A stretch of 35,030 nucleotides of DNA from Roseimaritima sediminicola. GTDB lineage: Bacteria > Planctomycetota > Planctomycetia > Pirellulales > Pirellulaceae. Each line of letters starts with the position of its first letter. Positions within the stretch are counted from its first letter, which is position 1. The stretch covers positions 1-35,030 of the forward strand of contig NZ_WIAD01000057.1 of the NCBI RefSeq assembly GCF_009618275.1. Reading direction: 5' to 3'. Under the pieces are notes generated by a model. That model was not told the origin of the DNA. It saw only the letters and a list, made by a program, of their open reading frames with translations, and made no database searches. Position numbers and translations under genes: made by a program. Shown piece after piece: positions 4,686-35,030 of this stretch.

Positions 4686-4709
4686 TTAAACTCTGGCGAG
4701 TTCGGCTAC
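4686..4709 (+). repeat. 24-bp hairpin element, copy 1 (stem version B)
   Basis: First of 13 dispersed copies of a 24-bp element whose core is a 5-bp stem around a TGGC loop. Here the core is AACTC-TGGC-GAGTT. Other copies are listed individually or inside the repeat blocks below. The element is intergenic, or overlaps only a stop codon, in every case. Confidence 0.75.
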
Positions 4710-4729
4710 GGGATTTAGCAACAAACGGC

Positions 4730-4869
4730 CTGGGACTCGTTGCCTCGTTCACTACGGAACGATAGGTCCGGGACTCGTTGCCTCGTCCACTACGGAACGA
4801 TAGGCCTGGGACTCGTTGCCTCGTCCACTACGGAACGATAGTCTAGGACTCGTTGCCTCGTCCACTACC
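4730..4869 (+). repeat. Tandem array of a 37-38-bp unit, four copies
   Basis: The 25-bp module beginning GGACTCGTTGCCTCGTCCAC starts at 4733, 4771, 4809 and 4846 (spacings 38, 38, 37). Three copies are followed by TACGGAACGATAG. The same 25-bp module recurs at 6937, 6966, 6995 (degenerate), 9095 and 14607, and in reverse near 14091 and 17755. It lies in the leader region of the dehydratase gene. Confidence 0.85.
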
Positions 4870-4879
4870 GGTGGGACGG

Positions 4880-4906
4880 TTCACAGGCTGGAAGCCTATG
4901 CCACTG
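4880..4906 (-). repeat. 27-bp hairpin element (minus orientation)
   Basis: A copy of the element whose core on the opposite strand is CATAGGCTTCCAGCCTGTG, an 8-bp stem (one G-T pair) with a 3-base loop. Translating it in one frame gives TGWKPMP, which artificially extends the dehydratase reading frame upstream of its true start. Confidence 0.8.
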
Positions 4907-4939
4907 GGGCGACACTATCGAGGAAAGAATAGGTTACTG

Positions 4940-6150: not shown

Positions 6151-6846
6151 ATGCTGAAACGCACACTGGACATCACGGTCTCCGCTCTGGTACTGCTCAT
6201 TTTGGCAGTCCCTTTGGCCTTCGTCATTGTGATCCTGAAACTGACGGGCGAGCGGGAAGCGTTTTACCTGCAAGATCGCGTGGGGCAGGGCGGCAAGATC
6301 ATCCAGGTGACCAAGTTCGCCACGATGCTGAAGGCCAGCCCGACCTTGGGTACGCAGAACATCACTCTGCGTAACGACCCGCGTGTGCTGCCCGTCGGTA
6401 AGTATCTGCGCAAGACGAAACTGAATGAAGTGCCGCAGTTTTGGGATGTGCTGGTGGGCAAACTGTCACTGGTTGGATGGCGGCCGTTAATGCCACAGGG
6501 CTTCGCGGATTATCACGAAGAGATCCAGCGGCAGATTGTTCTAGTGAAGCCGGGGTTGACCGGAATGGGCTCGTTGTTCTTTCGCGACGAGGAAGCGATT
6601 TTGGCAAGAGCTGAAATCGAGGGACGCGACATAAGGCACTGTTACCGAGAGGACATCATGCCCTACAAGGGTGCGTTGGAAATTTGGTACGTCGAGAACC
6701 ATAGCCTGCTGGTGGACTTGAAAATTCTCTTGGCAACCGCCATCGCCGTGGCCTTCCCAGGGTGGCGTGGGTTCCATTCCTGGTTCAAGGGACTCCCCGT
6801 TCCCGAATCAGCCATCGTCCGCAGCCAGCTGGCCATCGATAGCTGA
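6151..6846 (+). CDS. Monotopic phosphoglycosyl transferase (PglC/WcaJ-C-terminal family)
   Basis: A 231-residue bacterial sugar transferase (PF02397 type), the small PglC-like form. An N-terminal hydrophobic re-entrant helix (about residues 8-31, broken at Pro21) is followed by the catalytic domain. It transfers a phospho-sugar from UDP-sugar to undecaprenyl phosphate, starting glycan assembly at the inner membrane. The motif that usually reads DE is Asn92-Glu93 here (RKTKLNEVPQ). KFRTM is KFATM, and SLVGPRP is SLVGWRP. I recall a subfamily with KFATM, NELPQ and GSxxFRDEE motifs, which matches GSLFFRDEEAIL here, so this may be a subfamily trait rather than inactivation. It follows the dehydratase by two bases and is probably translationally coupled to it. 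Confidence 0.9.
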   Translation: MLKRTLDITVSALVLLILAVPLAFVIVILKLTGEREAFYLQDRVGQGGKIIQVTKFATMLKASPTLGTQNITLRNDPRVLPVGKYLRKTKLNEVPQFWDVLVGKLSLVGWRPLMPQGFADYHEEIQRQIVLVKPGLTGMGSLFFRDEEAILARAEIEGRDIRHCYREDIMPYKGALEIWYVENHSLLVDLKILLATAIAVAFPGWRGFHSWFKGLPVPESAIVRSQLAIDS

Positions 6847-6851
6847 AAGAA

Positions 6852-7018
6852 CAGTGGCATAGGCTTCCAGCCTGTGAAGGACTTCTTGAAGGGTAGTAGA
6901 CGAAGCCGCGAGTCCTTGTCGTCAGGTTTTGCCAGGGGACTCGTGGCCTCGTCCACTACGGGTGGGGACTCGTGGCCTCGTCCACTACGCGTTGGGACTT
7001 GTGGCCTCTTGCATTACG
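6852..7018. repeat. Repeat block between PGT and YdcF-like gene
   Basis: Contains one 27-bp hairpin (6852-6878), immediately after the PGT stop at 6846, a degenerate reverse copy of the 25-bp module near 6893-6916, and three forward copies beginning at 6937, 6966 and 6995. The last is decayed (GGACTTGTGGCCTCTTGCAT). No gene is seen. Confidence 0.75.
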
Positions 7019-7889: not shown

Positions 7890-8763
7890 ACGCTCCTTCG
7901 CGATTCCCAGTGGCATAGGCTTCCAGCCTGTGAAAGCGAGGTGGCCGCGTCCCGGCCGTCGACCGTGCAATCCCCGGCTGGGACAGCCGAGCTACTCTGT
8001 GGTATAGGCTTCCGGCCTGTGAAAGCGACGCCGCCGCGGGCGGCCGTCCAATCTCTGGCGAGTTCAGCTACTGGCGAGATCGCCGAGCGGGCCGTTTCAC
8101 CGCCGACACAGAGCTTTCGCCGCTATGCGGCTGGAGACCAGGCAGTGCCCCCTCACCCCCGGCCTCTTCTCCCCCGCAGCCAAGGACTGCTGGGGGCCAG
8201 CCCCCAAACCCCCGAGATTTTTGAGGCATGACGCCTCCGTTCAATGAGTGTACAAGCTCACCGCGCAGTATTAAGATGCGTCCACTGAGTGAACCAGATC
8301 GAGGCGTTGCAGCGATGCAACCTCGCCAGATATAATTCAGTCGCCGATGCGTCACTGACGTATCGAGCACGCGAGGCGGCCATGGTCCTAGTTTAGCGAC
8401 GGTGCTGTGGTCGCCTCTTTTACTTCGCTTGGGCTCGTCAGCCTGTGAAGATCCAGTGACTGGCACAGCGGGCCCGTCTTGAGACCTGCGGAGCAGGGAC
8501 AGCCCGCTGCCGGGGGCGCAGCCCCCGGTTTTCCGCTACACAGACGCAAAGCTCCGGAGGAGCGACAGCGCGGACATGGAGAGCCCGACGCGGGGCGCGG
8601 ATTTCTGTCGCCTCTCCGAGGCTTTTGCGTTCCATTCATGCCAAACCGGCGGTTTCACCGCCGGCAAAGAGTTGTCGCCGCTTCCAGCGGCTGTGGCATG
8701 ACGACATTCGAACGGATCTTGACCGTCCGGGCCCCGCGGCTCGCGCCGTCGGTCGATTTGTTG

Positions 8764-8825: not shown

Positions 8826-8866
8826 TACATAAGCCATGCGTTTTCGAATCAATCGACCCGCGGCTC

Positions 8867-9062
8867 GCGCCGTCGGCTAGCGGGGGCGCTGCTGGCGCGG
8901 ATGCGAATTGACCGTTTGCGACGGGCGATGTTTGGTGGCGTGAGACCCGCGCAACCGCGCCGTCGGCTTGGGGGGCGCTGCTGGCGCAGATGCGAATTAA
9001 CCGTTTGCGGCGGGCGATGTCTGGTGGCGTGAGACCCGCGCAACCGCGCCGTCGGCTAGGGG
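8867..9062 (+). repeat. Tandem 90-bp unit, about 2.2 copies
   Basis: CGTCGGCT recurs at 8871, 8961 and 9050 (periods 90 and 89), within a unit that runs GAGACCCGCGCAACCGCGCC, then CGTCGGCTAG, then GCTGCTGGCGC, and ends GGCGGGCGATGTTT-like. The same unit reappears at 23886-23985 and 24159-24215, where it is split by an insertion. Confidence 0.85.
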
Positions 9063-9119
9063 GTTCGGCGCCACTCGCCTCTCGCTTCTTTTGGGGACTC
9101 GTGGCCTCGTCCACTGCGT

Positions 9120-9143
9120 CCAAAGTCTGGCGACTTCAGCTAC
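9120..9143 (+). repeat. 24-bp hairpin element, copy 3 (stem version A)
   Basis: Core AAGTC-TGGC-GACTT, a perfect 5-bp stem. It lies 16 bp beyond the exosortase stop codon. Confidence 0.8.
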
Positions 9144-10823: not shown

Positions 10824-11476
10824 AAAACGCTGTAAGTAGCAGGGGACGGACCAGGGGGCCATCAACCCCCACCAACAATCCCATGTTATACCAAACGGGT
10901 GGTATAGGGAAGTTGTTGATTGATCGCTGAGAAGAGAGACGCGCAGCGCCCGTTTCTTAAGCTGCAAGGTGCCTACCTCAGCAGGCGGATTCGCAAACCG
11001 CTGCAAAGGCCTTACGCAAGCCCAGACGGATCCGCGGTCGCCTCGGCCTGTCGCCCATGCCGGGGCCTTGTATTTATCTTGAACGCGAAATCGGTAGTTA
11101 CACCACTAGTGGCGTGCTGCCGCCGCGCCCGGCGACTGGACGGGCTGATGATTAATTCGAAGACGCTTTGCTTGTGTGACTCGCTTGGGCAATAACCCCG
11201 GTTTTGCGGTGACGAAACCAAGGCTAGCGACCAAATGGCTCAATAAATCGACAGCCCGTGGGACCTCCGATCCCAAGCCAACAACAAACACTACCGATTT
11301 TTCCGGTCCTGCGGTGAGGGATGCCTCCCCACAGAGACTTGCCGGCCCCAGCGGTGGTTTTCGCTGGCACAAAACACCCACCCCGTGTAGATTCCCTATC
11401 CAACGCAGGCTGCTTGCGCAACAGGAGCGTCTCGGGCCTGGCACTCTCGCTTGTCATCCTTCGGGCAAACTCCAAT
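10824..11476. other. Divergent intergenic region with a 62-bp palindrome
   Basis: Separates the divergent exosortase and first tyrosine-kinase genes, so it should carry both promoters, but I could not place -35/-10 elements with confidence. It contains the inverted, decayed 62-bp palindrome (11179-11240) and its tail (about 11140-11178, with AATTCGAAGACGCTTTGC). The reading frames crossing it lack recognisable protein character. Confidence 0.5.
11179..11240. repeat. 62-bp imperfect palindrome, copy 2 (inverted, decayed)
   Basis: Reverse-orientation member of the family at 8764-8825 and 18028-18089, of the same 62-bp length and with the same GTGACGAAACC centre on this strand. Its arms are more diverged than in the other two copies. 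Its conserved tail lies on the left, as expected for the inverted orientation. Confidence 0.7.
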
Positions 11477-14047
11477 ATGCTTCACCCTGACCCTACTGCG
11501 TCTTCGCCTTCTGCGGCGTCGCCGACTTCGGACCTCGGTGACTCAGAGGCGAGCGGGAACCGGCCACTCCAAGCAGAGAGGGCGGGAGCGACGAAGACGC
11601 TCGAAGCCGGTTACCGAGACCTGGACTACCGCCAGCAGGATTATCGCCAGCAAGACTACCGCGAGATGGCGGTCGAAGACGGTATCGACTGGGTTAGGGC
11701 CCTGCGCCGCTATTGGTATGTATTGCTGCTGCCAACCGCGATCGGGCTGTCGGTCGCCTTCGCGCTGTTCCATTACGCGCCTCCGGTCTACCGGTGCTCG
11801 TCGAAGCTGATGATCGAAAGCGACGCCCCCAGCCTCCTGGATTCGGCCTCCGGAGACATCCTCAGTGGTCTACCTAGTGCGGACCTATTACTCGCGCAAC
11901 TCCTGTCTGACGACGTTCTCCAACAGGCCTCGGCCAGCATGGCGGAAAAACTGGATGCGCCTGCCGTGCCGCAGCCACGTACGGCGTTCAGCGCCGAGTT
12001 AACCGAAAGCCTCGAGTTTGAGCCGGAGGCAGGCGGTGGGGGAGCCGCCGGCGCGATGGCCTTTTACCTGCACGTCGATCACCGTGAAAAAGCGTTTGCT
12101 GCCGCGGGCGTGACCTCTTTGAGCGACGCCTTGGAAGCTTACTTCTCGGACCGCCGCGAAGATTCGATCGACGAACTGAAGCAGTTGATCCGGCACGCCA
12201 AAGACAAGCTGATGCCGGAACTGGATCAGTTGGAAGGCGAGTACGAACAGTTTCGCGAAGCCGAGTCGAATCTGGCGTGGGACGCGTCGGGAAAACTGGT
12301 GAACCGTTTCCGCGAAAAGGAAACTCTGTTGGCGGCAAGTCGTGTGGAATTGGAGCGGGAAAAAGACGGTTTGGACGTCCGCCTGGCCGCAATCCAAAAC
12401 GCCGCCGCCCGACAACGCACCAATCCGATTGCGGTCTTGGAGGTCGTCAGCCACCTGATGAACGCGGACCTAGATGTGCCTGGCCAACTCTCGTTGGACT
12501 CCGAGCACCTGCGTCCGGCCGACACGATCGAAGAAGACCTGCGACTAAAACGGCTGGACATCGAACGGTCATTGGTCCCGCTGGAAGTCGAACGCGATCA
12601 CTTTCTGGCGGTGTATGGCGAGGCCCATCCCACGGTCCAGCACCTGAATCAACGGATCGAAAGCACGCGGGAGAAGCTGCAAAAGCTGATCGAAGAAGAG
12701 GACGCGCGACGCGAAGAGCTGAGCTTGGCTTCGCTGGAACAATCCAAGCAGGTTCCTGCAGCCGAACAGAGCAAGCGGCAAGAGCACGCCAAATTCGTCG
12801 TCAATTCCTACGTCCGCGGTTTGCGAGCGCGGCAGGCCGTGCTGCAGTCGCAACTGGATAAGCTGGACGCGGAAATCGAACAATTGCGCGAGCAGGCGGC
12901 GGACCTGGCCGTGGCCGAACGCAAGGACGCCATGTTCCAACGCAAAATCGCTCGTTCGCAGGGTTTGCTGAGCCAAGTCGAGGAACAGATGGCACGGGTG
13001 AACCTGACCGACAAAGGGCCCAGCCTTCGCATCAAGAGTCTGCGCGCCCCAAACGAACCGCAGCAAGTCGCACCGGTGCTGTACAAGTACCTTGGGGCGG
13101 GCGGAATGTTGGGAGTCTTGCTGGGCTGCGGACTGATCTATGTTGTGGAGTCGTCATCGCACACCTTCCATAATCCGACTGAAATTGCGGAATCACTCGA
13201 TGTGCCGATCCTGGGCCAGATCCCTTGCTTGGCCAAGCGAGACACTAAGGACCGCGGGCAGTCGTCATCGGGTGTGCCGCGCAGCGTTTCGGTCGTGCAC
13301 CAGCCCAACAGCGTGATCGCCGAAGCGGTCCGCAAGATCCGTACGGCGCTGTTCTTCGAAGCCGCTCGGCGCGAGGCCCGCGTCATCCAGGTGACCAGTC
13401 CGCTGCCGGAGGATGGCAAGAGCACGGTGTCGGCCAACCTGGCCGCGTCGATCGCCGTTTCCGGAAAATCGGTCGTCCTGGTCGATGCCGACTTGCGGCG
13501 GCCCCAGACATCGAAAAGCTTTGGGTTAACGGGCGAGCCCGGAATCACGGAACTGCTGAACGATCATTGCACCCCCGAGGCGATCCTTCACGCGACTGAG
13601 GTGAACAATTTGTCGGTCATCCCCAGCGGGGCCATTCCCGCCAACCCGGCCGAGGCGATCGCGATGCCGGCCTTTGCCGAGCTGCTCGGGTGGCTCCGCC
13701 GCCGCTACGACTACGTGATCGTCGACACCCCGCCGCTGTTGGTCGTCTCAGATGCGGCGATCGTCTCGAATCTGGTCGACGGCGTCGTGTTCGCCTTCCG
13801 CGTCCGCCGCGGATGCCGGCCGCAGACCAAAGAAGCTCTCTCGATGCTCCGCAGCAGCGACGCCAATGTCCTGGGCTGCATCGTCAACCGTGTGCCCCCC
13901 GGCGGCCGGACACGCTATCAGGCGTCCACCGCATCGGCGTACCACTACCGCAGCTACCACCGGGAAACGAAACGCGGCGACAAGAACGACCAAGCCGTCG
14001 CCGTCAACGTCCGCAGCACCACGCCAAGGTCGTGGATGGAGGAGTAG
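11477..14047 (+). CDS. Wzz chain-length regulator fused to BY-kinase (Wzc-like), copy 1
   Basis: An 856-residue inner-membrane protein. The N-terminal cytoplasmic tail carries three DYR-xx pentads (Y51, Y56, Y61). Then come TM1 (about 80-97), a periplasmic Wzz region with long coiled coils (about 230-520), TM2 (about 540-560) and a bacterial tyrosine kinase domain. The kinase has Walker A PEDGKST (Lys648), Walker A' VVLVDADLRRP (Asp670, Asp672) and Walker B VIVDTPP (Asp750). The C-terminus has a tyrosine cluster (Y814, Y822, Y824, Y827), the usual autophosphorylation tail. It controls polymer length and export of the polysaccharide. I start at ATG 11477 because the frame upstream (from 11321) has no Wzc-like sequence. 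A second copy follows at 14883. Confidence 0.93.
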   Translation: MLHPDPTASSPSAASPTSDLGDSEASGNRPLQAERAGATKTLEAGYRDLDYRQQDYRQQDYREMAVEDGIDWVRALRRYWYVLLLPTAIGLSVAFALFHYAPPVYRCSSKLMIESDAPSLLDSASGDILSGLPSADLLLAQLLSDDVLQQASASMAEKLDAPAVPQPRTAFSAELTESLEFEPEAGGGGAAGAMAFYLHVDHREKAFAAAGVTSLSDALEAYFSDRREDSIDELKQLIRHAKDKLMPELDQLEGEYEQFREAESNLAWDASGKLVNRFREKETLLAASRVELEREKDGLDVRLAAIQNAAARQRTNPIAVLEVVSHLMNADLDVPGQLSLDSEHLRPADTIEEDLRLKRLDIERSLVPLEVERDHFLAVYGEAHPTVQHLNQRIESTREKLQKLIEEEDARREELSLASLEQSKQVPAAEQSKRQEHAKFVVNSYVRGLRARQAVLQSQLDKLDAEIEQLREQAADLAVAERKDAMFQRKIARSQGLLSQVEEQMARVNLTDKGPSLRIKSLRAPNEPQQVAPVLYKYLGAGGMLGVLLGCGLIYVVESSSHTFHNPTEIAESLDVPILGQIPCLAKRDTKDRGQSSSGVPRSVSVVHQPNSVIAEAVRKIRTALFFEAARREARVIQVTSPLPEDGKSTVSANLAASIAVSGKSVVLVDADLRRPQTSKSFGLTGEPGITELLNDHCTPEAILHATEVNNLSVIPSGAIPANPAEAIAMPAFAELLGWLRRRYDYVIVDTPPLLVVSDAAIVSNLVDGVVFAFRVRRGCRPQTKEALSMLRSSDANVLGCIVNRVPPGGRTRYQASTASAYHYRSYHRETKRGDKNDQAVAVNVRSTTPRSWMEE

Positions 14048-14055: not shown

Positions 14056-14079
14056 GTAGCTGAAGTCGCCAGACTTTGG
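14056..14079 (-). repeat. 24-bp hairpin element, copy 4 (stem version A)
   Basis: Reverse orientation, core AAGTC-GCCA-GACTT on the plus strand, starting 9 bp after the kinase stop codon. A reverse 25-bp module follows directly (about 14091-14116), the same pairing as at 17721-17780. Confidence 0.8.
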
Positions 14080-14180
14080 ACGGGTCCAATCGTAGTGGAC
14101 GAGGCAACGAGTCCCGTAGACCGTGAGCCGTTTGGGCGATAGCCCGGTTTTTGCCGTGCCTTGCTGGCGAGACGCTCGCC

Positions 14181-14380
14181 CAGTGGCATAGGCTTCCAGC
14201 CTGTGTAAGCGAGACACCAGTGGCATAGGCTTCCAGCCTGTAAAAGCGAGACACCAGTGGCATAGGCTTGCAGCCTGTGAACCGCATCCCCACGGGCCAG
14301 GGGCTCATGCTACAAACAGTGGCATAGGCTTCCAGCCTGTGGAAGCGAGACGCCAGTGGCATAGGCTTCCAGCCTGTGAA
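14181..14380 (+). repeat. Array of five 27-bp hairpins, 37-bp period
   Basis: CAGTGGCATAGGCTT starts at 14181, 14218, 14255, 14317 and 14354. Three of the four spacings are 37 bp. The third copy has a changed loop base (TGC instead of TCC), but its stem is intact. Linkers resemble AAGCGAGACAC. Confidence 0.85.
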
Positions 14381-14485
14381 GAACAGAACCGAGGGCAGTC
14401 ACCCAAGCGGCTGATGAGATGAAGCCCGTAGCTGCAAGAACCGGGGCTATCGCCCAAACAGCTCGATCCAGCGCACGCCCGTGTA

Positions 14486-14599
14486 GCAACCAGCAACCAG
14501 TAACCAGTAACCAGCAACCAGCAACCAGTAACCAGTAACCAGTAACCAGTAACCAGTAACCAGTAACCAGTAACCAGCAACCAGCAACCAGCAACCAAC
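14486..14599 (+). repeat. Heptanucleotide tandem array (AACCAGT/AACCAGC), about 16 copies
   Basis: An uninterrupted run of 7-bp units with a T/C alternation at the last position and an AACCAAC end. It translates in any frame as a low-complexity peptide, which explains the spurious leucine- and tryptophan-rich reading frames on the opposite strand. Confidence 0.9.
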
Positions 14600-14606
14600 C
14601 GCCGGG

Positions 14607-14882
14607 GGACTCGTTGCCTCGTCCGCTACGGTTTGGGTCTAAACTCTAGCGAGTTCGGCTACCGGCGCGCGGTTCACAGGCTGGAAGCCTATGCCACTGG
14701 TCCAAACTCTGGCGAGTTCGGCTACGGGGCTTGGTGATCCTTAACGGTTTTTCTGATCAGATGGAATGATCCATTCTTGCTTGCCCTGGCGGAGCGGATC
14801 TTGGCCTTTTTGCGCCTTTGACTGGTGGAAATTTTGGATGGAGTGTAAGTTGGGGGGTGGATAAGCGACCCTCCCTCTACAC
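14607..14882. repeat. Mosaic of 25-, 24- and 27-bp repeats, then the kinase-2 leader
   Basis: A 25-bp module (14607), 24-bp element (14639-14662, loop TAGC, stem B intact), reverse 27-bp element (14673-14699) and 24-bp element (14702-14725, stem B) occur in series. The remaining stretch to 14882 is repeat-free and likely holds the promoter of the second kinase. It has no gene and no strong Shine-Dalgarno. Confidence 0.7.
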
Positions 14883-17690
14883 ATGGCTAATTGGGAACCC
14901 TTGATGTCGAAGCACGCATCGGATCCGTCGAACAATCACAGCTTGACCGGTTCGTCCAATGGGCGAGCCGAGCGGCCAGACGCATTGGCAAAGCCGCTGC
15001 CCACGGCTTATCGCGATGCGGGTTCGGCGCTGCCCGCCGGCTACCGCAATCCTGATTACCGGGGGATGGATTATCGCGGCATGGACTATCGCGGCGACCA
15101 ACCAGACGATGGTTCACTCGATTTGGCCGCAGCGGCCTGGCGGTACCGCTGGTTCATCATCCTGCCGGTCTTGTTGGGCTTGGCCGCCGGTTACACCTTC
15201 TACGAAACCCAGCCGATCACCTATCGCTCCTCGACCAAACTGCTGATCGAAAGCGATATGCCAACGATCCTGGATTCGGCGACCGGGGACATCGTCAGCG
15301 GCCTGCCCGGTGAAGATTTGTTGCTGGCGCAGTTGCAGTCTGACACCGTGCTCCGCAACGCCGCGGAGGATCCGTTGATGCAGAACTTGTCGCCCCTATC
15401 TACAGCACCGACGGCCGAGGCCGTTTCGACCGGCATGGCAGCAGACGACTCGCTGGATAACATCGGTACCGAGAACTTGCTGGACGGAGTGGACCAGATC
15501 GACAGCGGACTCACACCGCCTGCGCGAAAGAGTGTCATTAGTGAATTGGCCAAGAGCCTTGAGTTTGAACCGGACGCCACCAGCGGTCGCGGCGGCAACG
15601 CCATGTCTTTCTTGCTGCACGTCGACCATGCCAATCCGCGGTTTGCCGAAGCCGGTGTGGAAGCCCTTAGCAAGGCGTTGGAAGACTACTACGTTGCCAA
15701 AACCCAGAACACGATTGGCGAGCTGAAGGCGTTGATTACGCGAGCCAAAGAGGAATTGCTGCCCGAGGTCGAGAAGCTGGAAGCGGAATACGAGCAGTTC
15801 CGCGCCGGCCAGCCGGATTTGGCTTGGGACGGTGCGGGCAATCTGATCAATCGGTTCCGCGAAACCGAAGTGGCTCTCCTGGAACAGCGCACAGCTTTGC
15901 AAACCGAACGCGGCGATCTGGAAATCAAACTGGCCGCGATCCTCAGCACCGCTCAAGAGCAAAAGGACGATCCCATCCTGGTCATGAACGTCGTTGGCCA
16001 ATTGATGGGCGTGTCGCTGAACGCCACGCTCGAGGATGAACCTACGGGCCCCAATGGAAAACCGTTGGTGGTCAGCGATCCGATTGCCGACGACGTGCGT
16101 TTGGCTCGCTTGGCGATCGAACGGCAATTGGTGCCGTTGGAGGTGAAACGCGATAACTTGGCCGCCACCTTCGCCGACGCTCATCCGGCCGTTCAACAAC
16201 TGGATCGTCAAATCGAAAGCACCCGAGCGAAATTGCACGAGTTGATCGCCCAGGAAGACGCTCGACGAGAAGAGATCAAGAGTGATCTGCCCGAAGTCGA
16301 AGTCGCGGCGCCAATAACGGTCGAGGAGTACCGTGAGAAGCGAAAGCAGCGGGCGAAGACCGTGGTATCGACGTTCGTCCGTGGATTGCGCACGCGAGCT
16401 TCGGTGTTGGATTCGCAGATCCAGGATCTGACCAAACAGATCGAACAAGCTCGCGGGAACGCCGCCAAACTGGCCAACGCTGAACGGGTCGATGAAGTCT
16501 ACCGTCAGAAGGTCCAGCGGTCGCAAAGCTTATTGAGCCAGGTCGAAGAACAGATGGCACGGATCAACGTGACCGAAAGCGGCAGCAATATCCGCGTTGA
16601 ACCGCTTACTGCGCCCACAGCCGCGTATCGATTAGCTCCGATCCTATGGAAGTGCTTGGCCGTGGGCACCTTCCTGGGCGGACTGGTCGGATGTGGTTTG
16701 GTTTACCTGCTGGAGTCGATGGCCAAAACATTCCGCAGCAGCGACGAGATTTCGCAAATGCTGCAACTGCCGGTACTGGGCCAAATCCCCCTCCACTCCA
16801 CCAAAGCGCCGCGTGAGGCCAAACGCGCTGACTACCCCTATAAACACATCGATTACGGCTTGGCAATCATCCATCGCCCCCGCTCGCTAGGCTCCGAAGC
16901 GATCCGGCGGGTCCGCACGTCCGTCTTCTTCGAAGCGGTGCAGAGCGGAGCCAAGGTGATCCAGGTGACCAGTCCTGTGCCCGAGGACGGCAAGAGCAAC
17001 ATCTCGGCCAACCTGGCTGCTTCGATCGCCAATTCAGGCAAATCTGTGGTGTTGCTTGACGCAGACCTGCGGCGACCGCAGACCTCGCACAATTTCGGCC
17101 TAGGAGAAGCAAGCGGCTTGACCGAATTGCTAAACGGCCAAGCCGTACCGAGTGATATTATTTTTGATTCCGGTTTTGAAAATCTATCCGTCATTCCTAG
17201 CGGAGCGATTCCCAGCAATCCTGGCGAAGCCTTGGGCTTGCCGGAATTTGGTGAGCTCATGCAGTGGCTGCGAGAACGCTACGATTACGTGATCGTTGAC
17301 ACGCCGCCACTGTTGGTCGTGGCCGATCCGGCGATCGTCTCCGCAGTGGTCGACGGTGTGATCATGACGTTCCGAATCCAACGCGGATGTCGCCCCAAGA
17401 CCAAGGAGGCCGTCGCGATGCTGAAAGCCAAACAGGTGAATATTCTGGGTTGTGTCGTTAACAAAATCGACGAACGAAAGAGCTCGAATTACCGAGCAAC
17501 CGAGGCCGGATCGTACTACTACAAAAAATACCAGCGAGGGCTGAGTCGTCGTGTTCGTAAGAGCACACGCAACGGCTACGAAGTCCGCAAGAACGCGGGC
17601 GGACGAATGAACGAATGGCTGCAGCCAGGCGACGAACCGGTATCCCGCTCGGCGCCACCGGAAACCGACGAAGCCACCCCGATGCGGTAA
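14883..17690 (+). CDS. Wzz chain-length regulator fused to BY-kinase (Wzc-like), copy 2
   Basis: A 935-residue paralogue of the preceding kinase with the same order: a cytoplasmic tail with DYR pentads (Y59, Y64, Y69, preceded by Y54), TM1 (about 90-108), a long periplasmic coiled-coil region, TM2 (about 580-605) and a kinase domain. The kinase has Walker A PEDGKSN (Lys704), A' VVLLDADLRRP and Walker B VIVDTPP (Asp806). The tail has YYYKKY and further basic residues, then an extra 30-residue extension absent in copy 1. Both starts at 14883 and 14904 (MSKHAS) are possible, as neither has a clear ribosome-binding site. Similarity across the full length indicates tandem duplication; division of labour is inferred. 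It should set chain length and export of the polymer built by the upstream genes. Confidence 0.93.
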   Translation: MANWEPLMSKHASDPSNNHSLTGSSNGRAERPDALAKPLPTAYRDAGSALPAGYRNPDYRGMDYRGMDYRGDQPDDGSLDLAAAAWRYRWFIILPVLLGLAAGYTFYETQPITYRSSTKLLIESDMPTILDSATGDIVSGLPGEDLLLAQLQSDTVLRNAAEDPLMQNLSPLSTAPTAEAVSTGMAADDSLDNIGTENLLDGVDQIDSGLTPPARKSVISELAKSLEFEPDATSGRGGNAMSFLLHVDHANPRFAEAGVEALSKALEDYYVAKTQNTIGELKALITRAKEELLPEVEKLEAEYEQFRAGQPDLAWDGAGNLINRFRETEVALLEQRTALQTERGDLEIKLAAILSTAQEQKDDPILVMNVVGQLMGVSLNATLEDEPTGPNGKPLVVSDPIADDVRLARLAIERQLVPLEVKRDNLAATFADAHPAVQQLDRQIESTRAKLHELIAQEDARREEIKSDLPEVEVAAPITVEEYREKRKQRAKTVVSTFVRGLRTRASVLDSQIQDLTKQIEQARGNAAKLANAERVDEVYRQKVQRSQSLLSQVEEQMARINVTESGSNIRVEPLTAPTAAYRLAPILWKCLAVGTFLGGLVGCGLVYLLESMAKTFRSSDEISQMLQLPVLGQIPLHSTKAPREAKRADYPYKHIDYGLAIIHRPRSLGSEAIRRVRTSVFFEAVQSGAKVIQVTSPVPEDGKSNISANLAASIANSGKSVVLLDADLRRPQTSHNFGLGEASGLTELLNGQAVPSDIIFDSGFENLSVIPSGAIPSNPGEALGLPEFGELMQWLRERYDYVIVDTPPLLVVADPAIVSAVVDGVIMTFRIQRGCRPKTKEAVAMLKAKQVNILGCVVNKIDERKSSNYRATEAGSYYYKKYQRGLSRRVRKSTRNGYEVRKNAGGRMNEWLQPGDEPVSRSAPPETDEATPMR

Positions 17691-18385
17691 GGGGGGGGGT
17701 GGTTGAAGGAGATAAGGGCTGTAGCTGAAGTCGCCAGACTTTGGACGAATTAAACCGTAGTGGACGAGGCCACGAGTCCGGGGCTTTCGTTGCTGGTTGT
17801 CAGTTGATGGCCGTTGGTTAACGGTTGTTAGATACAGGGCCGCAACCGGTTCTTCGTTGCCAAGCAGCGTCCGTCGATAGCTTGGTGACGCGAGTCCCAG
17901 GCCGGGCCTCGCGAACCAACCAAAGCCCTGGAGAGGCGACAGAGCAGTGCGCACCTTGTGCCGCCCTTCGGGCTGAGTGCCGTTTTTAGATCGAGACCCG
18001 GGGACTCTCCGGCCTGTCGATTCATGGAGCCGTTTAGGCGCCAGCCTCGGTTTCGTCACAGCAGAACCGGGGCTATCGCCCAAACGGCTCATATCAGCAA
18101 AGCGTTTTCGAATGAATCGACGAGCCGGTCAACCGCCGGGTCACGCCCCCGAACAAACAAAAGCCCCGGAGGGGCGATAGGGACCAGCACAACCTGTGTC
18201 GCCCTGCGGGCTGAGCGAGTTTCAGGGGCAAGCAAACCGGGGACTCACGTCCCCGGCAGGGGCTATGCCGCCCTTCGGGCTAGCGGCGGCGGTAACCCAA
18301 TCAGCCGTAGGCGCTAGCCTCGGGTCTCATCCCGATCGATCCGGCCGCAGCCCACAAGGTTCCAACACCTAGCGCGGCTCCTTAA
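17691..18385. repeat. Repeat region between convergent kinase 2 and thioredoxin-like genes
   Basis: Contains the reverse 24-bp element copy 7 (17721-17744, stem A), a reverse 25-bp module (from about 17755), the best 62-bp palindrome (18028-18089) with its tail, and several short hairpins such as CGGGGACTCACGTCCCCGG near 18238. A G-run (GGGGGGGGG) follows the kinase stop. No gene is supported. Confidence 0.7.
18028..18089. repeat. 62-bp imperfect palindrome, copy 3
   Basis: Same length and arms as 8764-8825, with left-arm changes (GGCGCCAGCC instead of GGCAATAGCC). The conserved tail with AGCAAAGCGTTTTCGAATG follows on the right. Confidence 0.8.
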
Positions 18386-18656
18386 CCTCACAGGCTGGAA
18401 GCCTATGCCACTGGCTCAGCCCGAGGGGCGACATATCACAGGCTGGAAGCCTATGCCACTGGCTCAGCCCGGAGGGCGACATATCACAGGCTGGAAGCCT
18501 ATGCCACTGGGCAAGCCCGAAGGGCGACACTTCACAGGCTGGAAGCCTATGCCACTGGGCAAGCCCGAAGGGCGACACTTCACAGGCTGGAAGCCTATGC
18601 CACAGGGCAAGCCCGGAGGGCGACACACCACAGGCTGGAAGCCTATGCCACTGGTT
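18386..18656 (-). repeat. Six-copy 48-bp tandem array containing the 27-bp hairpin
   Basis: CAGGCTGG recurs at 18391, 18439, 18487, 18535, 18583 and 18631: exactly 48 bp each time. Each unit is a minus-orientation 27-bp hairpin plus a linker with GCCC-GAAGGGCGACA. Because 48 is divisible by three, all frames stay open and give 16-residue pseudo-repeats (TGWKPMP or GIGFQPV). These are not genes. The array ends two bases before the stop codon of the thioredoxin-like gene. Confidence 0.92.
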
Positions 18657-18657
18657 G

Positions 18658-19602: not shown

Positions 19603-19608
19603 CAAACC

Positions 19609-20429: not shown

Positions 20430-20496
20430 AACCAACAACCAACAACCAACAACCAACAACCAACAACCAACAACCAACAACCAACAACCAACAACC
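20430..20496 (+). repeat. Heptanucleotide tandem array (CAACCAA), about 9.5 copies
   Basis: A perfect 7-bp repeat filling the whole space between the 24-bp hairpin and the Shine-Dalgarno of the next gene. Copy-number change would alter the length of that gene's leader or promoter spacing. Confidence 0.92.
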
Positions 20497-20501
20497 AGGA
20501 A
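20497..20501 (+). promoter_or_regulatory. Ribosome-binding site AGGAA
   Basis: AGGAA sits about 7-8 bases before ATG 20509, one of the clearest Shine-Dalgarno sequences in the window. It supports this start, and it abuts the heptamer array. Confidence 0.75.
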
Positions 20502-20508
20502 TGCTTTC

Positions 20509-21279
20509 ATGAACGTCGATGCGAAACAGGGCCGACTGAACCAGGCGGTGTGCGGCTGGTGCTACGAACACTTGCCCCTGGACACGCTGGCCGCCGAAGT
20601 GGCCGCACGCGGTATGGCCGGGATCGATCTGCTCGAGCCCGCTCAGTTCGAAACGGTCAAACAGCACGGTCTGATCTGCACGATGGTCACCTCCCATCCG
20701 CTCGAGGAGGGCCTGTGCGACCCGCAGTACCACGCGATGTGCCTGGAGAAATTGACCGCCTCGATCGAGGCCACCGCGGCCGAGGGCTGGCCCAACGTGA
20801 TCTGCTTTACCGGTAACGCTCGCGGCATCGATCGCGAAACCGGGATGCGGAACTGCATCACGGCGCTGGAAAAGATCCTTCCGCTGGCCGAAAGCCGGGG
20901 CGTCACGCTGGTCATGGAACTGCTGAACAGCCGCGTCGATCACCCGGATTACATGTGCGACCGCTCGGAGTGGGGCGTGGAGCTGGTCCGCCGAGTGGGG
21001 TCGAAGCACTTTCGGTTGCTGTTCGACGTCTACCACATGCAGATCATGGAGGGCGATATAATTCGCACGATCGAGCAACACCACGAAGCTTTTGGGCATT
21101 ATCATACGGCTGGCAATCCTGGTCGCCATGAATTGGACGAGCACCAGGAGCTGCGTTACCCCGCAATCGCACGGGCGATCGCCGACACGGGTTTTGCCGG
21201 TTACCTGGCGCACGAGTTCGTGGCCAAGGGCGATCCCCTGGCGGCCCTCAGCGACGCCGTCCGGCAGTGCACCGTGTGA
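20509..21279 (+). CDS. hyi: Hydroxypyruvate isomerase-like TIM-barrel protein
   Basis: A 256-residue protein of the AP-endonuclease-2/xylose-isomerase-like TIM-barrel family, the usual length for hydroxypyruvate isomerase, which interconverts hydroxypyruvate and tartronate semialdehyde. Metal and catalytic residues of the family are in place: Glu137 (VMELLN), Asp173 (LLFDVYHMQ), His199 (HYHTAGNPGRHELD) and Glu236 (LAHEFVAKGD). The N-terminal CGWCYEHLPLD segment is also typical. It is cytoplasmic. The start is fixed by AGGAA upstream. Its TGA overlaps an ATG in the frame of the heme protein (TGATG, 21277-21281). A related sugar epimerase activity cannot be excluded. Confidence 0.88.
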   Translation: MNVDAKQGRLNQAVCGWCYEHLPLDTLAAEVAARGMAGIDLLEPAQFETVKQHGLICTMVTSHPLEEGLCDPQYHAMCLEKLTASIEATAAEGWPNVICFTGNARGIDRETGMRNCITALEKILPLAESRGVTLVMELLNSRVDHPDYMCDRSEWGVELVRRVGSKHFRLLFDVYHMQIMEGDIIRTIEQHHEAFGHYHTAGNPGRHELDEHQELRYPAIARAIADTGFAGYLAHEFVAKGDPLAALSDAVRQCTV

Positions 21280-23837: not shown

Positions 23838-23885
23838 CGGCGGAGTCGTTTTCATAGTCGCTCGGCTGGCGACGGCCGAGCGGCA

Positions 23886-24215
23886 GGCGATATTTGGTGG
23901 CGTGAGACCCGCGCAACCGCGCCGTCGGCTAGCGGGGTCGCTGCTGGCGCGGAAGCGAATTGACCGTTTGCGGCGGGCGATGTTTAAGCACGTCGGCATG
24001 AATCTTTCGGTGAAACCCCGCGACAACACCCTCCCGCGCAGCGGGAGGGTCGGGCTCTTAGGCCCGGGGAGGGCCCTGCGAAAACCCTCTCCGGGCCTAA
24101 GAGCCCGACTCTCCCAAAGGGAGAGTGATGCCGAATTAAAGGTTGCGACGTGTTTAGTGGCATGAGACCCGCGCAACCGCGCCGTCGGCTAAGGGGGGTG
24201 CTGCTGGTGCGGATT
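23886..24215. repeat. 90-bp repeat unit split by an inserted palindromic element
   Basis: A copy of the 90-bp unit seen at 8867-9062 runs from 23886 to 23985 and resumes at about 24159 (GAGACCCGCGCAACCGCGCC, then CGTCGGCTAA). Between them lies about 170 bp that is absent from the array at 8867-9062. The whole 487-bp space between the heme protein and the GspE-like gene has no gene. Confidence 0.8.
23986..24155. mobile_element. 170-bp MITE-like insertion with three-stem palindrome
   Basis: Ends are AAGCACGTCG and CGACGTGTTT (inverted, one mismatch); alternatively TGTTT at both borders is a target duplication. Inside are three hairpins in series: a 10-bp stem (24028-24037 with 24041-24050), a 25-bp stem with one mismatch (24049-24073 with 24085-24109, 11-base loop) and an 8-bp stem (24108-24115 with 24119-24126). 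No coding capacity. The uninterrupted unit near 8928-8950 acts as an empty site. Confidence 0.75.
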
Positions 24216-27515: not shown

Positions 27516-28787
27516 ATGACCACCTCGGGAAATCGCAAATCGAAGGCTGCTCGGCCCAAGCGTCCGCGACGCGCGGCGGTTGCCTTTATTTTGCTGACCA
27601 TCTTCATCGATGTGTTGGGCATTGGATTGGTGATCCCGGTCTTGCCGGAGCTGGTCAAACAGATGGTCGGTGGCCAGGCGCATACGGCCAGCCGGTACCT
27701 GGGCATCATCATGGCCAGTTACTCGCTGATGCAGTTCGTCTTCGCTCCGCTGGTCGGCGCATTTTCCGACGCCTACGGTCGTCGACCAATCCTGCTGGCG
27801 TCCATGTTCGGCTTTGGAGCCAATTTTCTGATCCAGGGTTTTGCCCCGAACATCTGGTGGTTGTTTTTTGGGCGCGTGATCGCGGGCGTGATGGGCGCCA
27901 GCTTTACGACCGCCAACGCCTACATCGCCGACGTTTCGGACACCAGCACGCGGGCCCGCAATTTCGGCTTCGTGGGTTTGATGTTCGGTTTGGGGTTTAT
28001 CGTCGGACCGGCCGCCGGCGGTTTGTTGGGAGAGATCTCGTTGCGGCTGCCGTTCTTCGTAGCGGCCGGACTGGCGCTGCTGAACGGGCTGTACGGCTTT
28101 TTTATTCTGCCGGAATCGCTGGCCGAGGAGCATCGTGGTCCGCTGCGTTTATCCAAGGCCAACCCGCTGGGAACGATCGTCTTTCTGCGCAGCTATCCGC
28201 TGGTCGCGGCGCTCGTCGTGCCGTTCGTCCTGGCGTCGCTGGCCCAGCGTGGGCTGGAGAACGTGTGGGTGCTGCACACCGGGTTTCGCTACGGCTGGAG
28301 CGCGTTTACGAACGGTCTGACGCTGGGTCTGGTGGGGTTGATGGCGGCACTGGTTCAAGGCGGATTGGTCCGGCCCTCGATCCGCCGCTTCGGTCCACGA
28401 CCGGTGGCCGTGTTTGCGACCTCGGTTTCGGCGACCGCGTTTCTGGGTTACGCGTTGGCCCAGCAGGGATGGATGGTGCCGCCGATCATCGTCTTCGGGT
28501 CGCTGGGCGGATTGGCCGGCCCGGCGATCCAGAGTTTGATCGCCGGATCGGTAGATCCGGGCGATCAGGGAAAAGTGCAGGGAGCCCTGACGTCGCTGGT
28601 AAGTTTGACGAACATCGTGGCGCCGATCGTCTTCGCCACCGTCCTGTTCAATTATTTTACTTCGGGCCGGGCCGGATTTATTTTCGCCGGCGCCCCGTTC
28701 CTGCTGGGCAGCGCCCTGTTGGCCGCCGCTGCGATCGCCCTGAAAGGCGTGTTTGCCCGGTTCCCGGGAGAGGAGGAAGGTGGTTGA
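27516..28787 (+). CDS. MFS transporter, TetA/multidrug exporter-like
   Basis: A 423-residue integral membrane protein with a basic N-terminus (about residues 7-20) and twelve predicted membrane segments. The opening segment FIDVLGIGLVIPVLPELV and the loop 2-3 motif GAFSDAYGRRP (residues 81-91) are typical of the DHA1/TetA class of proton antiporters. It probably exports a small molecule; the substrate is unknown. I start at ATG 27516, while GTG 27483 would add codons from a repeat tail. Its TGA stop falls inside the heptamer array that begins at 28781. It is divergent from the FAH-family gene and convergent with hisS. Confidence 0.88.
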   Translation: MTTSGNRKSKAARPKRPRRAAVAFILLTIFIDVLGIGLVIPVLPELVKQMVGGQAHTASRYLGIIMASYSLMQFVFAPLVGAFSDAYGRRPILLASMFGFGANFLIQGFAPNIWWLFFGRVIAGVMGASFTTANAYIADVSDTSTRARNFGFVGLMFGLGFIVGPAAGGLLGEISLRLPFFVAAGLALLNGLYGFFILPESLAEEHRGPLRLSKANPLGTIVFLRSYPLVAALVVPFVLASLAQRGLENVWVLHTGFRYGWSAFTNGLTLGLVGLMAALVQGGLVRPSIRRFGPRPVAVFATSVSATAFLGYALAQQGWMVPPIIVFGSLGGLAGPAIQSLIAGSVDPGDQGKVQGALTSLVSLTNIVAPIVFATVLFNYFTSGRAGFIFAGAPFLLGSALLAAAAIALKGVFARFPGEEEGG

Positions 28788-28874
28788 TGGTTGATGGTTG
28801 ATGGTTGTTGGTTGTTGGTTGATGGTTGTTGGTTGTTGGTTGTTGGTTGTTGGTTGTTGGTTGTTGGTTGTTGG
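28781..28874 (+). repeat. Heptanucleotide tandem array (TTGATGG/TTGTTGG), about 13 copies
   Basis: The reverse complement of the CAACCAA-type arrays at 20430 and 32799, with TGATGG variants at the left end. It supplies the TGA stop of the MFS gene (28785-28787). Confidence 0.92.
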
Positions 28875-28940
28875 GGAGAGGGGACGATCTGAGATTTGTT
28901 GGGCTCCAACGGAGCCTATATACGGACAAAAACTTTTTCT

Positions 28941-29314: not shown

Positions 29315-29338
29315 CCAACGCCTGGCGACTTCAGCTAC
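29315..29338 (+). repeat. 24-bp hairpin element, copy 10 (decayed arm)
   Basis: Left arm changed to ACGCC while the right arm is GACTT, so pairing is lost. It overlaps the hisS stop codon: the minus-strand TAG at 29337-29335 is part of the element's GTAGC. Confidence 0.75.
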
Positions 29339-32238: not shown

Positions 32239-32311
32239 ATAGCTGAAGTCGCCAGACTTTGGTGAAATGAGTGGCGAGAAGCGAGTGGCGAGTGGCGAGT
32301 GGCGAGTGGTT
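32239..32311. repeat. 24-bp hairpin (copy 11, stem A) and GAGTGGC heptamer array
   Basis: The reverse 24-bp element (32239-32262) has a perfect AAGTC-GCCA-GACTT core and lies 34 bp after the purU stop. A 7-bp array of GAGTGGC-like units (with one GAGAAGC) follows at 32269-32311 and resembles the decayed array at the exosortase 3' end. Confidence 0.8.
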
Positions 32312-32437
32312 GGCGTGCGAAGGTCGGTCGCAGCAGCCACGCCAGTGGCGACAGGTGGTAGCTCGCGTTTTAGTCCCGCAGGGACGGCAGGATGTAGCCA
32401 TGGGCGTCAGCCCGTGGTTGCGCAGCAAGCACGTTTC

Positions 32438-32572
32438 AAAAGCCCTGGAAGGGCGACATGTGGTAGCCCCAGGCGCGAGCCTGGGGTGCCGTCCCCACAC
32501 CCCCGCGCCAGTCCCAGAGGGACGACACGAAGTTCCGGGGCCAACGGTTCCTGTCGCCCTTCCAGGGCTTTT
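32438..32572. repeat. Long inverted repeat with perfect 21-bp arms
   Basis: AAAAGCCCTGGAAGGGCGAC(A) at 32438-32458 is exactly complementary to 32552-32572. Between them are smaller hairpins, such as CCCCAGGCGCGAGCCTGGGG near 32467. There is no coding capacity. The segment lies between the convergent purU and sulfatase genes. Confidence 0.85.
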
Positions 32573-32656
32573 TGTTCGTGGTGTTTACATTTCCCCGGGC
32601 TCGCGCTTTGGGGCTACCACAATCAATCGCTGCGCGATTCAAGGACATCCGTTCCC

Positions 32657-32913
32657 GTACATAGAATCCGCCGGAGTCAGCAAATCTCAGATCGAGCACG
32701 AGCACGAGCACGAGCACGAGTACGAGTACGAGTACGAGTACGAGTACGAGTACGAGCACGAGCACGATCGAAACTCGCCACTCGCCACTCGCCACTCAAA
32801 ACCAACAACCAACAACCAACAACCAACAACCAACAACCAACAACCAACAACCAACAACCAACAACCAACAACCAACAACCAACAACCAACAACCAACAAC
32901 CAACAACCAACAA
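32657..32913. repeat. Tandem-repeat cluster: hexamer and two heptamer arrays
   Basis: One end of the 19398-type element (CATAGAATCCGCCGGAGTCAG) is followed by a hexamer array (GAGCAC/GAGTAC, about 12 copies, 32693-32768), three CGCCACT heptamers (about 32774-32796) and about 16 CAACCAA heptamers (32799-32916). The hexamer array is the only period-6 run among these; it encodes Glu-His/Glu-Tyr pseudo-repeats and is not a gene. Confidence 0.88.
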
Positions 32914-32937
32914 CCAAACTCTGGCGACTTCAGCTAC
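32914..32937 (+). repeat. 24-bp hairpin element, copy 12 (hybrid arms)
   Basis: Left arm of version B (AACTC) with right arm of version A (GACTT), so the central pair is C-C. This is an intermediate between the two compensated versions. It supplies the sulfatase stop codon (TGA, 32932-32930 on the minus strand). Confidence 0.8.
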
Positions 32938-34861
32938 CAGACTTCTCGACCGCGATCTCGGCGGCGCTGGCCCAGGGGCCTCCGTTGATCTCGGAATCGG
33001 CCCAGATCTTGACGTAGCGGCCGCGGGCATCGGGCAACCGGATCGCTTGCGGCTCGCGGGTCTTCCGCAGCCGCTTCTTGACTTGCGGCGTGTGGTCCAA
33101 TTGCCCGATGTCGTCGCCGACCGAGACCCGCACGTCGGCGATCGTTCCGTTCCAACCACCGTCCTGCCGGGCGACGTACCACACGGCCGAGATCTCGTAG
33201 GCCTTGCCCAAGTCGATCAACAACCAGTGCGGCGCCTCGGCCTTGGCGGGTGAGAACCGGCTGTGCCACACCGTGCCCGCGTCGCCGTCGATCGCGTTTT
33301 TGGCCAGTTTGCCGTTGCCCCTATTCTGACTACTGTATCCGGCGATCATCATCTGCTCGTGCGGCACCAGATTCGTAGCGGGAATCGCGACCTCACGCTT
33401 TTCGCGCTTCGGAGCTCGACCGCCAAACTTCGCCCGCCGATCACGCTCGTGCAGCGTGCGGTCGTCGAACGTTCCCTCCTCGACCGGCTCGTGAGCCTCT
33501 TCGGCGTAGGCCTTCATCTTGGCCAGCTGCTCGGGATGCTGGTCTGCGATGTTATCGGATTCGCTGATGTCCTGCTCCAGGTCGTACAGCTCCCAGGGTT
33601 TCTTTTCATTCGGCTTGATCGCTTTCCATTTGCCTTCGCGCACCGCGGTCTGCCGCCCGAGTTCCCAGTACAGGTAGTCGTGCTGGGTCTGCGGCCGCCC
33701 GGCGGCTTCTTCTCCGATCAGCGTCGGCACGATCGACATCCCATCGATGTCCTGCGGCGGGCGCACTCCGGCCAATTCCGCCACCGTGGGCAGCACGTCG
33801 GGAAAGTACCACAGCAGATCACTGACCTGGCCGGGCTGGATCTTGCCGGGCCAGCGGACCATCATCGGGATCCGCAGACCGCCCTCGTACAGCTGGCCTT
33901 TGCGGCCGCGGAATTCGGCCCCGGTCTGCGGGTTGACGTTCGCGCCGTGGAACCCACGCGGGTACTGCTTGCTGGAAAAATAATCGGCGCCGCCGTTGTC
34001 GCCACAGAAGAACACGATCGTGTCCTCCTCCAGGCCCAGCTCACCCAGCAGATCCAGCGTCTGGCCGACTTGGCGATCGACCATCGTGACCATGGCCGCA
34101 TAGCGCTTGGCCGGCTCGGGCCAGGGCCGGTCTTTGTAGACCTGCCACGCCGGATCGTCGTCGGGAATATCGAACAGACCATGCGGCGGCGTGATCGGCA
34201 GGTAGCAGAAGAAGGGCTGGTCGCGGTGTTCGCGGATAAACTCCTGCGAGGCGTCGAAGATCACGTAATGCGAATAGGTCTCGCCCGTGCTGCCGCCCTG
34301 GTTGCCTTCCAGCGGCACCTCTTCGCTGTTGCGAATGATGTAGGGCGGGTAGTAGGAATGGGCGTGGACCTGGTCGTAGTAGCCCAGGAAAACGTCAAAG
34401 CCATGCTCTTCCGGGACGCCCGTCGAACCGCGTCCGCCGCAGCCCCACTTGCCAAAGCCACCGGTAGCGTAACCGGCCGGCTTCAGCAGCGAAGCGATCG
34501 TCGCCTCGCCGGCGCGCAGCGGTGTTCCGCCACCGTTGCTGCGCACCGAGGTGTGCCCGCTGTGCTTGCCCGTCATCAGACACGCTCGCGTGGGAGCGCA
34601 CACCGAAGAACCGGCCAGAGCCTGGGTGAAACGAATTCCCTGCTGTGCCATCCGGTCCAGGTTGGGCGTCTGGATGTTGGGATTGCCCATCCCGGACAAC
34701 TCGTAGTAGCCCAGTTCGTCGGCCATGATGTACACGACGTTGGGCGGCGCGTCGGAAGGCCGCTCGGCACGCCCCGGGGTCGCAGTGAGAACGATCAGCG
34801 ACAGCAAGAAGGCCGCCAAGCAAGAGGCGGCCGGGACCGGGAAGCATCGAGCGAATGGCAT
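32930..34861 (-). CDS. Secreted sulfatase with C-terminal F5/8 type C (discoidin) domain
   Basis: A 643-residue exported hydrolase. The signal peptide spans about residues 1-32 (hydrophobic AAFLLSLIVLTA, cleavage near GRA). The type I sulfatase domain (about 40-500) has the formylglycine signature Cys88-Ala-Pro-Thr-Arg92, the metal region MADELGY (one Asp of the usual DD is Glu49), GKWGCG and GDNGG. Residues about 530-640 form an F5/8 type C-like domain that may bind the carbohydrate substrate. It would remove sulfate esters from polysaccharides in the periplasm or outside. Activation needs a formylglycine-generating enzyme, not present here. I start at ATG 34861; the frame continues upstream to 35008 but without signal-peptide character. 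The stop lies in a repeat. Confidence 0.93.
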   Translation of the reverse strand: MPFARCFPVPAASCLAAFLLSLIVLTATPGRAERPSDAPPNVVYIMADELGYYELSGMGNPNIQTPNLDRMAQQGIRFTQALAGSSVCAPTRACLMTGKHSGHTSVRSNGGGTPLRAGEATIASLLKPAGYATGGFGKWGCGGRGSTGVPEEHGFDVFLGYYDQVHAHSYYPPYIIRNSEEVPLEGNQGGSTGETYSHYVIFDASQEFIREHRDQPFFCYLPITPPHGLFDIPDDDPAWQVYKDRPWPEPAKRYAAMVTMVDRQVGQTLDLLGELGLEEDTIVFFCGDNGGADYFSSKQYPRGFHGANVNPQTGAEFRGRKGQLYEGGLRIPMMVRWPGKIQPGQVSDLLWYFPDVLPTVAELAGVRPPQDIDGMSIVPTLIGEEAAGRPQTQHDYLYWELGRQTAVREGKWKAIKPNEKKPWELYDLEQDISESDNIADQHPEQLAKMKAYAEEAHEPVEEGTFDDRTLHERDRRAKFGGRAPKREKREVAIPATNLVPHEQMMIAGYSSQNRGNGKLAKNAIDGDAGTVWHSRFSPAKAEAPHWLLIDLGKAYEISAVWYVARQDGGWNGTIADVRVSVGDDIGQLDHTPQVKKRLRKTREPQAIRLPDARGRYVKIWADSEINGGPWASAAEIAVEKSGS

Positions 34862-35030
34862 GGCGAACACGTCTCCATCAGAGCAGGAAGAAGCACCGTT
34901 CGCCGATTGTAACGCAGAGGGGTTGGTGGGTGGTTGGTTGGGGCCACCCGTAGCTGAACTCGCCAGAGTTTGGTGGCGAGATTGCAAATTGCAAATTGAA
35001 CAATGCAAATTGCAAATTGAGATGTTCTGA
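34862..35030. repeat. Sulfatase upstream region with 24-bp hairpin and TGCAAAT heptamers
   Basis: Contains reverse 24-bp element copy 13 (34950-34973, core AACTC-GCCA-GAGTT) and a 7-bp array of TTGCAAA units (34980-35019) interrupted by GAACAA. The sulfatase promoter should lie between 34862 and 34950, but I cannot place it. The window ends without another gene start that I can support. Confidence 0.7.

Follow-up and report, generated by a model that had tools for sequence, protein, structure and literature searches.

A GTAG-tagged hairpin dispersed in Roseimaritima sediminicola is half of a REPIN-type inverted doublet with unlike stems

A stretch of 35,030 nucleotides of Roseimaritima sediminicola DNA (the window) carried a short hairpin at 13 places in two complementary stem versions, which raised the question of what the element is and why both arms of its stem change together. 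The initial annotation had read these double changes as a sign that the folded form is selected, or is what replicates or is corrected, and had offered a REP-like element, a transcript 3' end signal or a protein-binding site. All 13 copies were recovered with zero to two mismatches from one of two 24-mers, and ten Markov-generated control windows contained no match to the 24-mers with fewer than seven mismatches. The reported division into versions was found as well, with five copies of AAGTC-TGGC-GACTT and five of AACTC-TGGC-GAGTT, the middle pair being G-C in the one (G version) and C-G in the other (C version). The copy at 32914 was indeed an intermediate changed in one arm, and pairing was lost at 29315 and at 8048, where one arm looked like that of the C version and the other like that of a third version. 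Six of the 13 copies overlapped a long ORF's stop codon or lay within 35 bp of one, as judged by eye from the ORF list, and the copy at 34950 more likely lay upstream of a gene, as the ortholog in a genome of the same genus (G001) suggested. The copies were as follows, with the strand of the GTAG tag:

4686-4709, minus strand: REP copy, C version, altered 3' end
8048-8071, minus strand: REP copy, tag-side arm of the C version, other arm resembling the third version, middle pair lost
9120-9143, minus strand: REP copy, G version
14056-14079, plus strand: REP copy, G version, 8 bp past the stop codon of ORF 11321-14047
14639-14662, minus strand: REP copy, C version, in tandem with 14702
14702-14725, minus strand: REP copy, C version, like same-direction (tandem) partner of 14639
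17721-17744, plus strand: REP copy, G version
19676-19699, minus strand: REP copy, G version, adjoining a heptamer array
20406-20429, minus strand: REP copy, C version, adjoining a heptamer array
29315-29338, minus strand: REP copy, G version, 3' arm damaged; aligned G001 site without a copy
32239-32262, plus strand: REP copy, G version, ATAG tag; aligned G001 site without a copy
32914-32937, minus strand: mixed copy, tag-side arm of the G version and other arm of the C version; G001 ortholog of the C version, fully paired
34950-34973, plus strand: REP copy, C version; two copies of opposite direction near this site in G001

Read on the opposite strand, the unit consisted of 5'-GTAG followed by a stem with a GCCA loop. 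The stem was paired as first described but measured 8 bp instead of 5 bp, CTGAAGTC-GCCA-GACTTTGG on the GTAG strand, including two G.T pairs; the other 8-bp version was CTGAACTC/GAGTTTGG. Both versions named initially were present, but a third, ATCTC/GAGAT, existed too, and the versions of the whole family were AAGTC/GACTT, AACTC/GAGTT, ATCTC/GAGAT and AATTC/GAATT. The tag, itself among the scored positions, was exact in 64 of 77 copies in the window's own genome (G000) and in 71 of 79 in G001. When the loop was left free in the search, GCCA was found in 67/77, 70/79 and 38/47 copies of G000, G001 and a genome of another genus (G022), respectively; when the two middle pairs were left free together with the loop, three main paired combinations accounted for 66/77, 70/79 and 40/47 copies. 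The loop may be a stable DNA tetraloop of the type d(cGNNAg).

Analysis of neighbouring copies less than 200 bp apart revealed how the versions are related. Among the 203 copies of the three genomes there were 51 close convergent pairs (15 in G000, 18 in G001 and 18 in G022, whose stretches had been taken around the first exact copies listed, with pairing not a criterion), and none of the 51 had like halves. Because one point change already makes two halves differ, the count was repeated with recognised versions only: 39 convergent pairs had two recognised halves and all 39 were unlike, the doublets with one changed-middle half numbering 12 of 51. Tandem pairs were alike in 16 of 19 cases. In 20,000 shuffles of the version labels the mean number of like pairs was 15.4 and the minimum 4, a result that is optimistic since doublets share descent; for the same reason 39 of 39 does not stand for 39 independent cases. 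Another 55 stretches, several of them from one genome, gave 35 unlike pairs out of 37 with recognised versions when five self-overlaps were left out, the two like pairs being at L231 and L254, and eight more pairs with a changed half. The combination of versions varied (G/C in Fuerstiella and G022, G/T in CALKXO, C/AT in a Verrucomicrobia MAG, G/AT in JAAYAY, and also C/T), and the spacers ranged from 4 to 199 nt, being alike inside some genomes (19 nt in Fuerstiella, about 30 nt in G022). These results showed that one hairpin makes up half of a REPIN, an inverted doublet whose tags lie outside and whose halves are distinguished by stem version. Many copies were solo, and in all three genomes the doublet halves were slightly better conserved than these, with mean mismatches to the consensus of 0.79 against 1.06 in G000, 0.41 against 0.89 in G001 and 1.06 against 1.27 in G022.

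The two stem versions are therefore mostly the unlike halves of one pair and not the outcome of ten repair events. As the versions are opposite doublet halves that nearly always differ, the compensation in 10 of 13 copies amounts to two standing lineages, and a selected fold does not follow from 13 copies in which both versions are old lineages, common to three genomes of two genera. The picture was locally close to two expansions lacking intermediates, which the initial annotation had named as the counter-case, with copies mixing the G and C versions making up 3 of 203 in G000, G001 and G022. More generally, dispersed repeats that differ by compensated changes may represent the fixed halves of a single element, and such differences should not be tallied as separate events. 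Across the family, however, the inference of a maintained fold held. Among the matches listed, 86 distinct genome-sequence pairs (26 G090 rows and repeats within a genome being left out) included 39 two-change stems, of which 29 had both changes in one pair and 26 were compensated, where about one was expected; the compensated changes fell at pairs 2, 3, 6 and 8 and were not all independent events. Stem pairing was thus constrained family-wide. G090 was an exception, with a T.T mismatch at stem pair 5 in 25 of its 26 listed copies.

The suggestion of a REP-like element was borne out and could be made precise as a GTAG-tagged REP that forms half of a REPIN-type doublet. The GTAG-tagged REP superfamily (Di Nocera 2013, PMC3733652) has the same tag, 8-bp stem and short loop, includes Planctomycetes among its carriers, contains sub-families with alternative complementary stem bases, and shows a preference for unlike dimers, with "no obvious explanation". 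The present hairpin differs from that account in that it lay without an adjoining transposase in the loci listed and its halves were unlike nearly always. We take it for a new REP family that shows the reported preference in an extreme form; it may equal a family already listed, for example one of R. baltica. REPINs (Bertels and Rainey 2011, PMC3116915) are likewise inverted REP doublets with conserved ends and a variable spacer, better conserved than singlets; the SBW25 ends shown there consist of a single 16-mer present twice in inverted orientation, whereas the halves here differed by compensated stem changes, and excision was seen in the SBW25 system but not here. The GTAG guide plus hairpin is also the substrate layout of RAYT / TnpA-REP systems, in which, according to PMC8266576, the tag and the stem pairing both matter for the cutting of single-stranded REPs, with stem mismatches lowering cleavage in two systems. 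The hairpin differed from these in having no cognate enzyme among the loci listed.

It is very probable, in our judgement, that the element is a GTAG-tagged REP, whose 8-bp stem closes a loop of four bases (as a rule GCCA), and that it forms half of a REPIN-type inverted doublet; that the doublets are non-autonomous elements, for which a Y1 (HUH) transposase of the RAYT/IS200 kind would copy the folded single strand of DNA; that solo copies, such as those of the window, would be remnants of doublets; and that unlike stems would favour folding into two hairpins over a single long one. In favour of mobility by a transposase, hairpins with this layout flanked Y1 transposases of these bacteria. 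Neither excision nor new insertion of the hairpin was seen in presence/absence comparison of four sites between two species.

The initial annotation had called for a search for a RAYT-type transposase. A RAYT-like gene was present at G000:C97:367933 (NF047646, 66.6 bits, cut-off 80), but it was flanked by a different REP family: the repeat GTGG-CATAGGCT-TCC-AGCCTGTG lay inverted on both sides of this gene (L307) and also filled parts of the window. PF01797 matched seven genes in G000. Four of them, at L001-L004, scored as IS200/IS605-type transposases and not as RAYTs (matched 113-115 residues); their flanking 8-bp hairpins were GTAG-tagged at L001, GATAG-tagged at L002 and L003 and less typical at L004. 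The hairpin of the window was found at the transposase edge in none of the 167 loci examined among those listed (137 + 30, with about 15 places counted twice), nor did it flank the strong RAYTs of copy-rich genomes (L303, L304, L305, L306, L308, L309, L313 and L314); the arrangement of a REPtron, a REP flanking a RAYT gene, was thus not found, and a further transposase gene beyond the listed loci could carry the hairpin at its edge. Some candidates were set aside: at L034 (G027) a related inverted pair with perfect stems was about 770 bp from the transposase match and did not flank it, the copies near L003, L006 and L052 were more than 1 kb away and no more than the copy density predicts, and a match with four mismatches at L301 sat inside the gene region.

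Why the halves differ is a separate matter. The pattern was compared in other REP families: convergent pairs were unlike in 27 of 27 cases in a second family of G001 (GTAGCTAC..., loop mostly GCCA) and in 9 of 10 in a third family, of G000 (GTAGC-N-CGGCTG), while they were alike in 21 of 23 cases in the GTAGCATGGGCC family of G001 and in 2 of 3 in the GTGGCATAGGCT family of G000. REPs on opposite sides of transposase genes, some 600 bp apart, were often alike (L099, L100, L176 and L179). The rule of unlike halves is therefore a property of particular families and not of the genome, and removal of palindromes by the host was rejected as its sole cause because of the like-paired family in G001. 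The rule may be history only, ancestral doublets having been unlike by chance and their copies having retained the difference, an account whose probability we place a little short of even. Spacers that are alike within Fuerstiella and within G022 speak for it, as does the like-paired G001 family, which shows that doublets need not in general be unlike; against it, the halves stayed unlike while combinations and spacers varied, and the second G001 family was unlike without exception. We advance only tentatively, as a possibility rather than an expectation, that the rule is functional: each doublet would need two stems, either of which can pair within itself but only poorly with the other, allowing the single strand to fold as two hairpins readable by the transposase and not as one long hairpin, and the versions would be interchangeable and turn over between lineages with only their difference conserved. 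Bertels and Rainey (PMC3116915) proposed that the RAYT recognises a two-hairpin clover and not a long hairpin; unlike stems may serve such a clover by favouring it over the single long hairpin. Calculated DNA energies for 43 natural doublets (spacer up to 50 nt) averaged -18.8 kcal/mol for the best fold and -9.3 kcal/mol for the halves folded separately, and doublets made alike in silico averaged -32.6 kcal/mol. The long hairpin thus had an advantage of about 23 kcal/mol with like stems and of about 9 kcal/mol with unlike stems, although it was still the best fold in 42 of 43 doublets, so the model gave only partial support, with unlike stems predicted to weaken, not abolish, the competing long hairpin. 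If the rule is functional, it would explain unlike REP dimers across many families. The preference was here nearly exceptionless, used several interchangeable versions across genera, was common to a second family and did not hold in another family of that genome, and such natural like and unlike doublets make the question directly testable.

The other two roles offered initially fared poorly. A terminator or stabilising hairpin at transcript 3' ends, selected as RNA, would suit the six window copies that overlap or closely follow a long-ORF stop codon and the G000 copies, of which 27 of 64 lay between convergent and 8 of 64 between divergent genes. That excess was seen in G000 alone, convergent and divergent positions numbering 15 and 11 of 60 in G001 and 5 and 9 of 40 in G022; base composition showed no T-rich flank, hence no T-run after the stem as in a Rho-independent terminator; and a strand-specific tag and a doublet structure are unexpected in a terminator, which makes this role highly unlikely. 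Some bacteria have host proteins that bind REPs, and the hairpin is short, conserved and dispersed, as a host-protein site on double-stranded DNA would be. Such a duplex site keeps its bases, whereas in the two-change stems the bases varied while pairing stayed, and the tag was confined to one strand; we regard this role as most improbable. A search for a gene family that the hairpin carries or is drawn by gave nothing: no gene cluster was outstanding and the largest looked like ordinary families.

The search of related genomes that had been proposed showed that the family recurs within the genus and beyond it. The window's own genome (6.2 Mb, 185 contigs) held 436 copies at up to three mismatches, 206 and 230 by strand, and a reversed-pattern control found none there. 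At two mismatches 8 of 60 genomes, its own included, were carriers, with 618 copies in G001 and 186 in G022; G002 and G003 of the same genus had none at this threshold (G003 being 82% complete). The perfect-stem form occurred in at least 46 of 149 genomes of the family, at least 21 of which had no fewer than five copies; little weight attaches to single matches, as the reversed control also gave three. An exact scan of named genomes found at least 55 stretches with labels mostly of Planctomycetota; among the matches listed were Pirellulaceae, Planctomycetaceae, Fuerstiella, Rubripirellula, Pirellula, TBK1r, one Phycisphaerae and several stretches from one Verrucomicrobia MAG, MAG labels being possibly wrong. 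The copies were mainly, though not all, extragenic: greedy ORFs with a minimum length of 100 aa left 10.5% of 835 kb of G000 uncovered, and 64/77 (G000), 60/79 (G001) and 40/47 (G022) copies lay outside such ORFs.

The right end of the window was 73-82% identical to G001 and allowed four sites to be compared. Those at 29315 and 32239 were empty in G001, although wider synteny around the empty sites was sparse, near 34950 G001 had two oppositely directed copies, and the copy at 32914 differed from its ortholog, a fully paired C version, only in the tag-side arm. In the window copy this arm was identical to the G-version arm most frequent locally, down to a T at position 6, so that 32914 looks like the replacement of one arm, judging from this single alignment.

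Other repeats were also present in the window. The GTGG-CATAGGCT-TCC-AGCCTGTG repeat, likely a REP with its own enzyme in the RAYT-like gene, occupied 6843-6893, 7899-8038, 14172-14395 and 18377-18654, built a 48-bp tandem array at 18337-18702 and had about 105 copies in 835 kb. A third repeat, GTAGTGGACGAGGCCACGAGTCCC (one strand, beginning with GTAG), was found at 4720-4878, 6924-7018, 9092-9118 and 14604-14630, and several times the hairpin was only about 10 bp away. Heptamer tandem arrays (CTCGCTA, AACCAAC and kin) at 14485-14610, 19593-19690, 20420-20517, 28767-28888 and 32773-32929 often adjoined hairpin copies in the window but not in G001 or G022. At a period-7 score of at least 0.6 they accompanied 12 of 77 G000 copies, compared with 4.4% of random intergenic points, and 0 of 79 and 0 of 47 copies in G001 and G022; the association was local, and the arrays were rejected as a target.

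Rfam RF01687 (Acido-Lenti-1) has an 8-bp stem and a 4-nt loop followed by CUA, the reverse complement of a tagged hairpin, but differs by an extra 5-bp hairpin, and the 13 window copies scored below its gathering score. It matched the window at 32372-32417 and 32441-32486 on the minus strand. Of 26 loci with Y1 transposase genes, mostly IS200-like, 14 had matches to it at hairpins next to the gene (L001-L003, L016, L018-L020, L022-L027 and L093; 58 matches in 86 kb). Six of the loci examined had been selected for tagged hairpins or transposases, and control stretches of G000 and G001, from fewer genomes, gave 2 matches in 140 kb. This "RNA" is probably a transposase-linked DNA element of REP type. 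An 89-bp repeat ending in GGTGGCGTGAGACCCGCGCAACCGCGCCGTCGGCTAG was found in two places, 8841-9080 and 23844-24213. The neighbouring ORFs 11321-14047 and 14883-17690 (908 and 935 aa) shared DNA stretches of 71-75% identity at offsets near 3.5 kb and are a probable tandem gene duplication.
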